47,931 bases of DNA from assembly GCF_030646255.1 (NCBI RefSeq), contig NZ_JAUSNF010000009.1:1-47931 (forward strand). Reading direction: 5' to 3'. The notes under the pieces were generated by a model. The model was not told where the DNA came from and did no database searches. It saw nothing but the letters and a program-made list of their open reading frames with translations. Shown here piece after piece: positions 40,566-44,707 of this stretch (positions are counted from its first letter, which is position 1; the number at the start of each line of letters is the position of its first letter). Origin of the DNA: Candidatus Burarchaeum sp. Lineage in GTDB: Archaea > Micrarchaeota > Micrarchaeia > Burarchaeales > Burarchaeaceae. The position numbers and the translations under genes were made by a program.

Positions 40566-40886
40566 CTACTCGAGCATGAGCAGCTTGATGGCGCGCTCGA
40601 GCGCATGCTTCACTTCCGCCTCGCTCTTGCTGCCTGTGCAGATGACCTTGCCGTTCTTGAAAAGAAGCAGCGAAGCCTTGGGGTCCTTGAGCTTCAGGAT
40701 GGCGCCCGGGAACTGCTCGGGCTCGTACTCAACGTCTGTAACCTTCTGCGCTATGGAATAGAGATCGAGCTCAACGCCAAGGTTGGCGCTCGCGACAATA
40801 TTTTCAATCTTGAACGTCGGCTGAATCTTCCGCTTCTTGCCTGCGGGTGCCGTTGTCATTCTTGCAGCCTTTGCCTTTTTAGCCAC
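40566..40886 (-). CDS. TATA-binding protein with a single TBP repeat
   Basis: 106 residues from GTG 40886 with GAGGTGGT upstream; ATG 40859 is another option. After a basic tail, 'FKIENIVASANLGVELDLYS', 'VEYEPEQFPGAILKLKDPKA', 'SLLLFKNGKVICTGSKSEAE' match one TBP repeat, including the two Phe (in FPG and LLLF) that wedge into DNA. Normal archaeal TBP has two such repeats in about 180-190 residues. The stop TAG at 40566 is followed by only 50 bases before the VIT gene ends, so there is no second repeat. It would bind as a homodimer. A TATA (TTTATAAAGG) lies upstream at 40905-40914. Confidence 0.88.
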   Translation of the reverse strand: MAKKAKAARMTTAPAGKKRKIQPTFKIENIVASANLGVELDLYSIAQKVTDVEYEPEQFPGAILKLKDPKASLLLFKNGKVICTGSKSEAEVKHALERAIKLLMLE

Positions 40887-40943
40887 GCTACCACCTCGGT
40901 ACCTTTATAAAGGGTTTTTAAAGGGTATATTAATAAAAGCTTA

Positions 40944-41510
40944 CTATGCATGCAGCCGTTTCCTTACCATCTGCTCAAGGACCTTGTCTATTCGAAGAAG
41001 TTTGCAAAATCCCTGCGCTATCAACATCCAAAGCAGACCAGACAAAACTATGCGAAGTTCGGAAGACTCTATCATGTTTAGTGTGAATATATTCATGAGC
41101 GAATCAAACAGTTCAGACGGAAATAGCATGCTGAGCCGCCACGCAGATATTATGAATATGCTTGATAGCACAATGCCGAGTCCCAAATAAATGGTGTAGA
41201 TCGCAATAGCGTCGACAAAAAACCAATCATATAGTTTCGAAGTCTTGTTCGCCAGCCAGTCAAAGCTTTCGCTTTTCTCATTTTTGTTCGCGCCTGAAGA
41301 GCGCCTAGCAGCTCTAAATGCAAAATATGCCACGATTATGAGTAATACGACAAAACCCAGGCGTTCGTTCCATTCGTTTCCTCCGTCAAAACCGCCCCCG
41401 AGAATGCGAAGGGTCCCTGATAGATTTTTTCCAAAGTAGATCACGATTACAAAAAAACTTAGGACGGCATAGATGATGAATGCTAGCCAAAGGGACCATT
41501 GACCTTTCAT
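40944..41510 (-). CDS. Multi-pass membrane protein of unknown family
   Basis: 188 residues from ATG 41510 (the track's 41606 lies inside the previous gene). About four membrane helices: 'WLAFIIYAVLSFFVIVIYF', 'LGFVVLLIIVAYFAFRAA', 'AIAIYTIYLGLGIVLSSIFIIS' (near), and a last one. No known family. Low GC. Probably co-transcribed with the transglutaminase-like gene that precedes it. Confidence 0.6.
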   Translation of the reverse strand: MKGQWSLWLAFIIYAVLSFFVIVIYFGKNLSGTLRILGGGFDGGNEWNERLGFVVLLIIVAYFAFRAARRSSGANKNEKSESFDWLANKTSKLYDWFFVDAIAIYTIYLGLGIVLSSIFIISAWRLSMLFPSELFDSLMNIFTLNMIESSELRIVLSGLLWMLIAQGFCKLLRIDKVLEQMVRKRLHA

Positions 41511-41553
41511 ACAGTGGTTATTTGGAAATGTATTATTATGGCTTAGCAATATC

Positions 41554-42375
41554 TCAAACCCTGTCTGTCGGGCGCCTGTAGTCCCACTGGATTTCATTTT
41601 TATCAAACTTCAAAGCAGCCTGCTCTAAAGGCAGAAGGACGTTCTCCGCCACATCTAGGACGAATACTTTCCCTTCAGTGTTGGTATATCTGCACGAGAG
41701 GTAAGCACTCTCATGCTCATTTTCCTCCACGCTCACGGTGCCCATTTTCGTTCCTTTCCAGTTTTCCTTGAAAAGCTCAAAAAGCGCGGCGCATGCTAGC
41801 GTAAAATGCCTGGCCTTGCCGGCCTTATTTTTGATGAATCTGTCAAGCCAGATTGGTTCGCCGTCGTTAACCCTATTTGCTTCAATTATCGCGTCAGCCA
41901 TCTTTTGACCATTTTCGGATCGCATTTCTTTTCCGACTGTTTCATAAATCGCCCGCATAACCAGTCCCTCGGTCATCTTTTTATTTGCTGTGGCGTTTTG
42001 CACAACTTTTTTCTTTGCTATATCGTAAAGCCTCAGTATCTCAGACGGTTTATAGTTCAAATCTACTATGATGGTCTCCCAGTGGGCCGTAACATAAATT
42101 CCATTAAGTATGGGCGAATCGGGGCCGATATTTCGATGTGCATATGGCTTAGATGACGGCAAAAGCGTGCAGTTAGTCTCGGGTATCTTCCCGCCCTTCA
42201 TGTTCATGTCTGACGGATGTGACGGCAAAAGTCTGCAGTTGTCCGAGCCTGGCTCGGGCCTCACCTTATTATACTCACCTGCAATGAGCTCCTTTAGCCT
42301 TTTGGCCGCCTCTGGCTTCATGCCTGGCGGTTTCCCTGGACGTTCCCCTCCTTTCATTGCGCCCTTAGGATTCAT
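41554..42375 (-). CDS. Protein with possible transglutaminase-like domain lacking Cys
   Basis: 273 residues from ATG 42375, 21-31 bases behind the TATA box GGTTTTTAAGT (42396-42406); the 42549 start of the track crosses the L21e promoter. N-terminal half charged and Pro-rich. Residues in the last third read 'GKARHFTLACAALFELFKEN', then 'ENEHESAYLSCRYTNTEGKV' and 'FVLDVAEN', like the G-x-C-R-x3-A, H-A-x, D of transglutaminase-like folds, with Ala where the catalytic Cys would be. This is a weak pattern match. Confidence 0.55.
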   Translation of the reverse strand: MNPKGAMKGGERPGKPPGMKPEAAKRLKELIAGEYNKVRPEPGSDNCRLLPSHPSDMNMKGGKIPETNCTLLPSSKPYAHRNIGPDSPILNGIYVTAHWETIIVDLNYKPSEILRLYDIAKKKVVQNATANKKMTEGLVMRAIYETVGKEMRSENGQKMADAIIEANRVNDGEPIWLDRFIKNKAGKARHFTLACAALFELFKENWKGTKMGTVSVEENEHESAYLSCRYTNTEGKVFVLDVAENVLLPLEQAALKFDKNEIQWDYRRPTDRV

Positions 42376-42436
42376 ACTTAACTTCCTCATCCAGGACTTA
42401 AAAACCCACCACCCGCCGAAGCGCGCATATAAACCC

Positions 42437-42446
42437 TTTAAATAGT
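42437..42446 (+). promoter_or_regulatory. TATA box of the L21e-rpoF operon
   Basis: CTTTAAATAG lies about 40-48 bases before ATG 42485, giving a leader of about 20 bases with the ribosome site GAGGAGGGG. Confidence 0.5.
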
Positions 42447-42485
42447 TAGCGTGCAGAATAACAGGCGAGAGGAGGGGCAGATTGT

Positions 42486-42764
42486 ATGCGACGTTCACTT
42501 GGAAAGCTATCGAAGAGGACCAGGCTTCTGCGCAGGCGGAGCCGCACATCGCTCAGCGTGAGTCAGAGACTCAAGCAGCTGGCGGTTGGAGATGAGGTGC
42601 ACTTGACTCACATGACGAGCAGGAGCATGCCGCACCCGCGCTACCGCGGGAGGACGGGCACGATCGTCGGCAAGCAGGGCAGTGCGTACTTGGTCAGGAT
42701 CGCGGACCACAACATGATTAAGAGGCTCGTCATAGAGGGCGTGCATCTCACAAAGGTGATATGA
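42486..42764 (+). CDS. rpl21e: 50S ribosomal protein L21e
   Basis: 92 residues. Starts 'MRRSLGKLSKRTRLLRRRSR', then 'VGDEVHLTHMTSRSMPHPRYRGRTG' (SH3-like beta-barrel of L21e) and ends 'GVHLTKVI'. Part of the large subunit. First gene of the typical archaeal L21e-rpoF-DUF655-ksgA operon, overlapping rpoF by ATGA. Confidence 0.95.
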   Translation: MRRSLGKLSKRTRLLRRRSRTSLSVSQRLKQLAVGDEVHLTHMTSRSMPHPRYRGRTGTIVGKQGSAYLVRIADHNMIKRLVIEGVHLTKVI

Positions 42765-43285
42765 TGATTGGACGAAATATTGCGTCGGCAAGGCCGGCAA
42801 CAATTGCAGAGGTCGAGGCGCTGCTGCAGGCGCAGAAGGACGGGCGCGAGCTCTCATTCGAGCAGCAGACCACGCTCGACTATGCCAAGAAGGTCGCGAA
42901 GACCTCTTCAAAGAGCGCGCAATCGCTCGTGAAGGAGCTTGTGAAGCTGGAGAAGCTCACTCCCGAGGTTGCGTGCAAGCTCGTGGACCTGCTGCCTGTG
43001 AACAAGGAGCAGCTTACGGCCATAGTGTCAAAGGAGCGCTACACTCTGAGCGAGAAGGAGATTGAGCAGGTTCTTTCAATGCTTGCAAAGGCCGCCAGCG
43101 AGAGGCCGAGGTACAAGCCCGAGGAGCCTTCAGTTGACGAGGTTGGCTTGGCCGTCGATGTCGTCTCCGCAGCCGAGGCCCCGGAAGCAGCAAGCACCGA
43201 ACTCGAGAAGGAAGCGAAGAACGAGAAGAAGGAAGATGAGAAGGAAGCAAAGGGCGAGAAAAAATCAAAGAAGAAGGAAGACTGA
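42761..43285 (+). CDS. rpoF: DNA-directed RNA polymerase subunit F (Rpo4)
   Basis: 174 residues. The core is the usual Rpo4: 'RPATIAEVEALLQAQKDGRE', 'QTTLDYAKKVAKTSS', 'LEKLTPEVACKLVDLLPVNKEQLTAIVSKERYTLS' (split), with the HRDC-like end 'IEQVLSMLAK'. After residue 115 it has an extra tail of about 60 residues, Glu/Lys rich, that normal Rpo4 lacks. It forms the stalk with Rpo7. Confidence 0.93.
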   Translation: MMIGRNIASARPATIAEVEALLQAQKDGRELSFEQQTTLDYAKKVAKTSSKSAQSLVKELVKLEKLTPEVACKLVDLLPVNKEQLTAIVSKERYTLSEKEIEQVLSMLAKAASERPRYKPEEPSVDEVGLAVDVVSAAEAPEAASTELEKEAKNEKKEDEKEAKGEKKSKKKED

Positions 43286-43317
43286 GTTCGTGAATGTGTT
43301 GTACGGGGATCAGGTGG

Positions 43318-43911
43318 ATGAAAATGTTGCAGCTCGAGGAGAAGGCAGTTGTAATCGACTACCTGCCGCTTGGCAAGTCCACTGACATGACCAAGCAATC
43401 CATAGCGCAGCTGCTGGGCATGAGCTACTTCACGCTGCTCGAGGCCACGCTGAAACCCGCGAGCTCGCTTTCCATAGGTGAAGTCGTGAATGTGGGCAAG
43501 GAGAACCGGGACAAGGTGGAGCACATAAAAGGCCGCATAACTTATGACCAGCTTACCACGGGCGCCAAGAACGAGCTCAAGACTGCCATCAGGATTGTCA
43601 TAATGTCGCGCGAGCCTGACTTCGTGAACTTCTACAACAAATCGGGCGCGATTACGATGCGCGTAAACCAGCTCGCGCTCCTGCCAGGGATAGGCAAGAA
43701 GCACTTGGAAGCCATAATAAACGAGCGCGAGCGCAAGCCCTTCGAGTCCATGGCTGATATAACCAAGCGCGTTTCATTGCTGCCAGATCCCGCTAACTTG
43801 CTCGTGCAGAGGATAGAGCAGGAGCTGCACGGCGATGAGCAGCACTACCTGTTCGTAAGGCCTCCTTCGCACGCAATGGATCAGCCATACGGATCATTTG
43901 GAAGATACTGA
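43318..43911 (+). CDS. DUF655 RNA-binding-like protein
   Basis: 197 residues from ATG 43318 with AGGTGG upstream. N-terminal S1/OB-like part 'EEKAVVIDYLPLGKS' and C-terminal helix-hairpin-helix 'NQLALLPGIGKKHLEAIINERERKPFESMADI' (split). The family is found beside rpoF and ksgA in archaea and is thought to bind nucleic acid. Confidence 0.92.
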   Translation: MKMLQLEEKAVVIDYLPLGKSTDMTKQSIAQLLGMSYFTLLEATLKPASSLSIGEVVNVGKENRDKVEHIKGRITYDQLTTGAKNELKTAIRIVIMSREPDFVNFYNKSGAITMRVNQLALLPGIGKKHLEAIINERERKPFESMADITKRVSLLPDPANLLVQRIEQELHGDEQHYLFVRPPSHAMDQPYGSFGRY

Positions 43912-43951
43912 TGGGGACGGGCAAGCGGGACTAACAGGAACGGCTGAGCTC

Positions 43952-44707
43952 ATGGAGCGGCGCGCAAAAAAGCTCGGGCAGTGCTTTCTTTCAGACTACA
44001 GGGTTATCGACCGGGAGATAGATTATGCCGCGCCCGAGGGCAAGACCATTCTTGAGATTGGTGCAGGCGACGGCAGGCTTACAATGCGGCTCGCCGAGAA
44101 GGCCAAGCACGTGATTGCGGTTGAGAAGGACGACCGCATGCTCGAGTTCCTGCTGCCCCTCGTAACACAATACCGCAACCTCGAAATCCTGCACGGCGAT
44201 TTCCTCGAGCTCGACTTTTCGGACAAGCGCTTTGACGTAATTTTCTCCAACGTGCCCTATGTAATTTCCTCTCCCTTGCTATTCAAGCTCGCAACCATGA
44301 GGTTCGACCGCGCGGTTCTCTGCCTGCAGAAGGAGTTCGTGGACCGCATGCTGGCAAAGCCCGGTGACAAGAAGCGTTCAAGGCTGTCAGTCATGAGCCA
44401 GCTGCACTTCGACGTGTGGGGCCTTGAGAGCGTGCCGCGCACTGCCTTCAAGCCCAGGCCCAAGGTGGATTCCACGATAATTGAGCTGCACCGCAGGGAC
44501 TTCCGGGCAACCGAATTCCAGTCAGAATTCATCAACAAGCTCTTCCAGCACAAGGTGCGCACTGTGCGCAGGGCCCTGCGCGATGCCTACGGCCGGCAAG
44601 TTTCAGAACTGAAGACAAACTTAGACGAGAGGCGCGTATTTTCACTAACCAATGAGGAAGTTCTGAAGCTTGCAAAGGAACTGGAACCGCTGCTTACTTT
44701 GACGTAG
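43952..44707 (+). CDS. ksgA: 16S rRNA dimethyladenosine transferase
   Basis: 251 residues from ATG 43952, in place of the TTG 43898 of the track, which lies inside DUF655. 'KKLGQCFLSDYRVID' is the family start; SAM motif 'ILEIGAGDGRLT', 'VIAVEKDDRM', and the NxPY motif as 'FSNVPYVISSPLLF'. It dimethylates two adenines in the helix 45 loop of 16S rRNA. Last gene of the operon. Confidence 0.94.
   Translation: MERRAKKLGQCFLSDYRVIDREIDYAAPEGKTILEIGAGDGRLTMRLAEKAKHVIAVEKDDRMLEFLLPLVTQYRNLEILHGDFLELDFSDKRFDVIFSNVPYVISSPLLFKLATMRFDRAVLCLQKEFVDRMLAKPGDKKRSRLSVMSQLHFDVWGLESVPRTAFKPRPKVDSTIIELHRRDFRATEFQSEFINKLFQHKVRTVRRALRDAYGRQVSELKTNLDERRVFSLTNEEVLKLAKELEPLLTLT

Follow-up and report, generated by a model that had tools for sequence, protein, structure and literature searches.

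The TATA-binding protein (TBP) of well-studied archaea and eukaryotes is a single chain of about 180 residues built from two tandem repeats, and in the resulting saddle S1 is the central strand of each lobe, lying beside the S1 of the other lobe. The two-repeat archaeal proteins from M. jannaschii (2z8u), P. woesei (1pcz/1ais) and S. acidocaldarius (1mp9) have much in common with the protein described here – about 44–49% lobe identity in structural alignments, a shared fold, the intercalating Phe residues, the YEPEQFPG stirrup, the TATA box and the TFB context – but they carry two lobes per chain rather than one, and lack the FPGA and FKNGK motifs, which are limited to the present clade.

Other systems also depart from the standard TBP layout. 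The TBP–TFIIB-like factors VITF-3 and VETF of poxviruses, which likewise belong to a multi-subunit RNA polymerase system, have a bipartite TBP fold within fused or heterodimeric factors, whereas here the lobe is single and free (PMC12917281). The TBP-like lobe of bacterial RNase HIII (DUF3378) is also single, but acts as the substrate-binding domain of a nuclease; our protein matches DUF3378 at an E-value of only 0.037 (14.6 bits against a cut-off of 27) and has no nuclease domain.

In a comparison of 34 species, Adachi et al. 2016 (PMC4910066) found that the first and second repeats (R1 and R2) separate cleanly into two clades, and the duplication was taken as a single event; reviews and surveys of DPANN archaea give TBP as two repeats or merely as present. 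A sentence in the Methods of Ravarani et al. 2020 (PMC7221094), citing Brindefalk et al. 2013, mentions single-lobe archaeal TBPs, which are in all likelihood proteins of the same type as the 106-aa TBP described here; that one sentence does not say which archaea carry them, nor whether they are the sole TBP, in what copy states they occur or whether they were ever re-duplicated. While the existence of such proteins was therefore known before, the open-licence literature returned no account of a phylum-wide single-repeat state, of a two-gene state or of a re-duplication. Since TBP is the standard textbook example of an ancient lobe duplication that happened once, the Micrarchaeota would provide an instance in which the lobe works singly and the duplication was redone.

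A single-lobe TBP gene and its locus

The window – the whole stretch of 47,931 nucleotides that was analysed, from Candidatus Burarchaeum sp. – contains the following features:

40566–40886, minus strand: single-repeat TATA-binding protein gene (GTG start, 106 aa; the end includes the stop codon)
40578–40814, minus strand: TBP repeat (PF00352 positions 2–82 of 85)
40890–40896, minus strand: AGGTGGT, a likely ribosome-binding site 3 nt from the GTG, read directly
40904–40911, minus strand: palindromic box TTTATAAA, 25 nt upstream of the TBP start codon
40915–40922, minus strand: box TTTAAAAA, 36 nt upstream of the TBP start codon
39895–40515, plus strand: convergent gene for a VIT1-family membrane protein, with 50 bp between its stop and the TBP stop
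42486–44707, plus strand: eL21–Rpo4–DUF655–KsgA cluster, a conserved neighbour of TBP in the phylum

In place of the two tandem repeats in a chain of about 180 aa that define a standard TBP, the 106-aa protein has a basic tail of about 20 aa followed by one S1-H1-S2-S5-H2 lobe. The sequence-only reading of this DNA had claimed one clear TBP repeat and no space for a second, and both points hold: there is a single PF00352 match (residues 25–103, E-value 1.5e-29, 102 bits against a cut-off of 22.9), and a second repeat has no room because the stop of the VIT1-family gene is so close. The two intercalating Phe residues (F59 and F76), the minor-groove residues N29 and V31, and a YEPEQFPG stirrup (residues 54–61) with the TFB-contact pair E55/E57 are all there; the roles of the wedge Phe, the minor-groove Asn and Val and the TFB-touching Glu-Pro-Glu stirrup we take to be those seen in established TBP structures. 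Among 95 distinct single repeats, the alignment columns N8, V10, E34, Q37, F38 and F55 are kept in every one and E36 in 94. At the level of sequence, every protomer thus retains the positions for the DNA wedge, the minor groove and TFB contact.

The predicted structure of the lobe, of moderate confidence (pLDDT 78), overlays half of M. jannaschii TBP (2z8u) with an rmsd of 0.8 Å over 76 columns. S1 is broken in the model of the single repeat folded alone (pLDDT about 66–80); in a fused cousin with two very similar halves, it is predicted as one continuous strand (pLDDT about 97–98), within what is modelled as a normal saddle (overall pLDDT 94, TM 0.86 to 1mp9). The NCBIfam TBP equivalogs (PRK00394) match the lobe at 98 bits, so far under their cut-off of 270 that pipelines relying on equivalog cut-offs would miss it; annotation pipelines that demand 180 aa fail in these archaea, as do methods based on the distance between R1 and R2.

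A whole-genome search at E≤10 found no other TBP (PF00352) match in the organism's own genome (1.21 Mb in 61 contigs, 84% complete). The same single-repeat gene is present in a genome of the same genus (87% identical), which is 91% complete and has one TBP gene only, and in one of the same family (83% identical), and relatives at the level of the order likewise carry it. Recurrence of the gene at the same locus in these independent genomes rules out a misassembly, as well as a frameshift or deletion confined to this one assembly. The two observations that the sequence-only reading had named as fatal to its proposal – a two-repeat TBP encoded at another place in the genome, or a misassembled locus – were accordingly not made, the former neither in the organism's own genome nor in about 25 more complete relatives. 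Contig records that come from named public genomes are mostly from Micrarchaeota; searches of plasmids and phages returned haloarchaeal TBPs only, and no close relative.

In most genomes checked of the window's order, TBP adjoins the eL21–Rpo4–DUF655–KsgA cluster and is transcribed away from it. The same TBP/eL21 arrangement is found in single-repeat Micrarchaeota of other families, in fused Micrarchaeota and in fused Iainarchaeota. It is common to single and fused forms, so that one orthologous gene has switched between one and two repeats. TBP usually adjoins eL21 directly in relatives; the window's genome has two extra genes in between, namely two minus-strand ORFs (40944–42549) without a Pfam match over the cut-off.

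Promoters, TFB and the predicted homodimer

The genome encodes two normal TFBs, each with a zinc ribbon and two cyclin repeats, and full 8-bp TTTWWAWA boxes occur 30 times in 167 upstream regions, compared with 1.7 expected from gene interiors; an A-rich element lies 3–4 nt upstream of these boxes. Of the two boxes in front of the TBP gene itself, TTTAAAAA is the one nearest to the usual box position of this genome (about -34). The gene therefore has the setting of a general factor, as the sole TBP found, alongside TFBs and TATA promoters. Our main reading, to which we assign a probability of roughly 80%, is that it encodes the general TBP of this organism, made of one repeat, which is predicted to form a homodimer that rebuilds the saddle and works with a normal TFB.

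A dimer is the simplest reading because one lobe would cover half of the 8-bp box, judging from known structures. Two identical chains would pair over their central S1 strands, the site at which R1 and R2 meet in a normal TBP, to give a two-fold symmetric saddle that would bend the 8-bp TATA box with two pairs of Phe residues. TFB could then dock on either stirrup. With two equal docks, the direction of transcription would not be set by an asymmetric TBP; it would fall to TFB and to the A-rich, BRE-like element preceding the box, which agrees with established archaeal promoter work. A phylum served by a single lobe would let one ask whether TBP has to be asymmetric in the first place, and whether direction comes from TFB and BRE or from TBP.

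Palindromic TATA boxes were considered as proof of a symmetric TBP and dropped. A first comparison seemed to favour more palindromic boxes in single-repeat genomes, but with cleaner pooled controls the asymmetry was 0.034 in the singles, compared with 0.027 in two-repeat Micrarchaeota and 0.035 in a nanoarchaeon. Archaeal TATA boxes are near-palindromic anyway, and because those of two-repeat relatives are equally so, box symmetry gives a symmetric TBP no specific support.

Two other readings of the protein have to be set against the homodimer. Its half length might point to something other than a general TBP, whether a TBP-lobe regulator or remnant or an artefact of assembly or a frameshift, yet it lies where the phylum normally carries its TBP, no other TBP was found in the genome, its functional residues are kept across 95 singles and it recurs in independent assemblies, so that such a reading is scarcely credible. 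The repeat might instead be half of an obligate heterodimer, pairing with a distinct TBP lobe from another gene, an arrangement suggested by the genomes of family f9 (family codes are ours), which keep two diverged single-repeat genes, and by family f6, with up to three in a genome such as G010. We regard this as very unlikely for the present protein, given that only one gene was found in its own genome (at E≤10) and in the same-genus genome and many others (at E≤0.001).

Copy states and the origin of the fused proteins

A survey of 295 Micrarchaeota genomes, with TBP searched at E≤0.001 as in all genomes other than the organism's own (E≤10), found exactly one TBP match in about 25 genomes that are at least 90% complete and represent more than 10 family codes. 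All one-match genomes with a place listed are single-repeat, with frames of 97–182 aa; they include G062 (family f13; one contig, 93% complete) and G023 (three contigs, 97% complete). Single-repeat genes, one to three per genome, characterise families f1, f2, f3, f5, f6, f8, f10, f11, f13, f14, f16, f19 and f24; most genomes of f9 have two diverged single-repeat genes of two recognisable types; and fused two-repeat TBPs are found in f7, f12, f15, f17, f18, f20 and f23. Beyond this phylum, TBP is fused in almost all Iainarchaeota, in 60 of 60 Nanoarchaeota genomes and, save for probable fragments at contig edges, in the Thermoplasmatota sampled.

The fused Micrarchaeota TBPs sit at the orthologous locus and belong to the same repeat clade as the single-repeat protein, each of their halves being 60–80% identical to it; they differ in joining two near-identical lobes, apparently from a secondary duplication, in one chain. 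Identity between their R1 and R2 reaches 83% at the amino-acid and 87% at the nucleotide level, compared with 39–55% in standard TBPs. In a tree of 84 repeats (82 columns), all Micrarchaeota and Iainarchaeota repeats – single, R1 and R2 – form one clade with support of 98/94, rising to 100/99 once long branches are removed. A topology in which Micrarchaeota R1 joins standard R1, and Micrarchaeota R2 joins standard R2, is rejected (AU p 0.015; p 0.0056 without long branches), and so is one that sets every R1 apart from every R2 (p 0.023); applied to Iainarchaeota alone, the test does not reject standard descent (p 0.13). Two residues tell the same groups apart: Ala after FPG (FPG-A-I) is found in 95/95 singles and 131/132 R1 and R2 repeats of Micrarchaeota and Iainarchaeota but in 0/56 standard repeats, and Lys after the second Phe (F-K) in 94/95, 132/132 and 1/56, respectively. 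The fused Micrarchaeota TBPs are, on this comparison of sequences, of secondary origin.

The present repeat consequently falls in neither the standard R1 nor the standard R2 clade. The mixture of R1 and R2 hallmarks remarked on in the sequence-only reading is explained by the separate clade formed by the Micrarchaeota and Iainarchaeota repeats rather than by membership in either standard type. As for the number of duplications, a first FastTree analysis had paired R1 with R2 of the same protein, as if many independent re-duplications had taken place, but these are not required: in the careful tree, one re-duplication inside Micrarchaeota is not rejected (AU p 0.29, with only 82 columns). Root placement among the repeats allows an origin from the R1 side as well as from the R2 side.

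History of the locus and atypical TBP genes

On a tree of RpoB (601 columns, 30 genomes), single-repeat lineages are the successive outer branches of Micrarchaeota, with support of 95–97, and the fused families fall in a 97/95 clade together with the singles of f9, f11 and f13. Three changes are needed on this tree, and the single state is limited to Micrarchaeota. Since standard fused TBPs lie outside, early loss of one repeat followed by re-duplication is the simplest account. An ancestral two-repeat gene would have lost one of its repeats early on, either in Micrarchaeota alone or in Micrarchaeota and Iainarchaeota together; in later lineages, the gene would have been duplicated into two diverged single-repeat partners, as in f9, or two copies would have been re-fused. 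It is, in our judgement, reasonably likely that a single-repeat homodimeric TBP was the founding state of Micrarchaeota and that their standard-looking two-repeat TBPs were rebuilt from it by new duplication, with homodimer, two-gene and fused states now coexisting at one orthologous locus; the TBP duplication would in that case have been reversed and then made again. The phylum would then be a natural test of how a homodimer turns into a heterodimer or a fused protein.

The sequence-only reading had left the choice between a form like the presumed ancestor and a reduced one. A primitive state, descending unbroken from the pre-duplication TBP ancestor through Micrarchaeota that never had the standard two-repeat protein, would agree with the basal position of single-repeat lineages on the RpoB tree and with a repeat clade that stands apart from standard R1 and R2 and can be rooted on both sides. 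It is quite improbable all the same, and the reduced form likelier: fused TBPs of the standard kind, with R1 and R2 of distinct types, are found in Thermoplasmatota and in Nanoarchaeota, which are DPANN too; the Iainarchaeota, which lie outside Micrarchaeota on the RpoB tree, are almost all fused; and Micrarchaeota and Iainarchaeota would have had to branch off ahead of every other archaeal group, unless the standard duplication occurred several times. The likeness of R1 and R2 within a protein is also what gene conversion would produce, had the ancestors always been fused and the single forms arisen by several late losses; families f9/f13 and f11, single forms inside the clade that holds the fused ones, fit such a course. 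We consider this concerted evolution unlikely, because conversion and loss take more events when the singles form successive outer branches with support of 95–97. Early loss and later re-duplication remains our preferred history.

Several TBP genes encountered in the survey deserve mention in their own right. The two types of f9, in pairs such as L167/L168, L169/L170 and L177/L178, are each kept family-wide and are candidate obligate TBP heterodimers; G010, from family f6 in the window's order, has three single-repeat paralogues (L135, L136 and L137) that may form combinatorial dimers, and G011 has two (L138 and L139). Longer frames with one TBP repeat are L174 (G036; 274 aa) and L020 (G024; 182 aa). 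A two-repeat TBP of Diapherotrites (L072:4955-5590) has its frame broken in repeat 2, by sequencing error or decay. The two-repeat TBP L101/L166 of G092, from family f9, groups with S. acidocaldarius TBP and is probably due to contamination or transfer, while TBPs of the Micrarchaeota/Iainarchaeota type in records titled Chloroflexota (L073), Marsarchaeota (L064) and Euryarchaeota (L069) are likely misbinned or misnamed. Finally, some Iainarchaeota (for example G301:C1:420110-420310 and G402:C46:71835-72029) and a member of the window's order (G004:C12:19300-19539) encode short separate proteins that each contain one TBP-like lobe of strongly diverged sequence; these lobes score about 24–42 bits, accompany a normal TBP and may perhaps be TBP-derived regulators.
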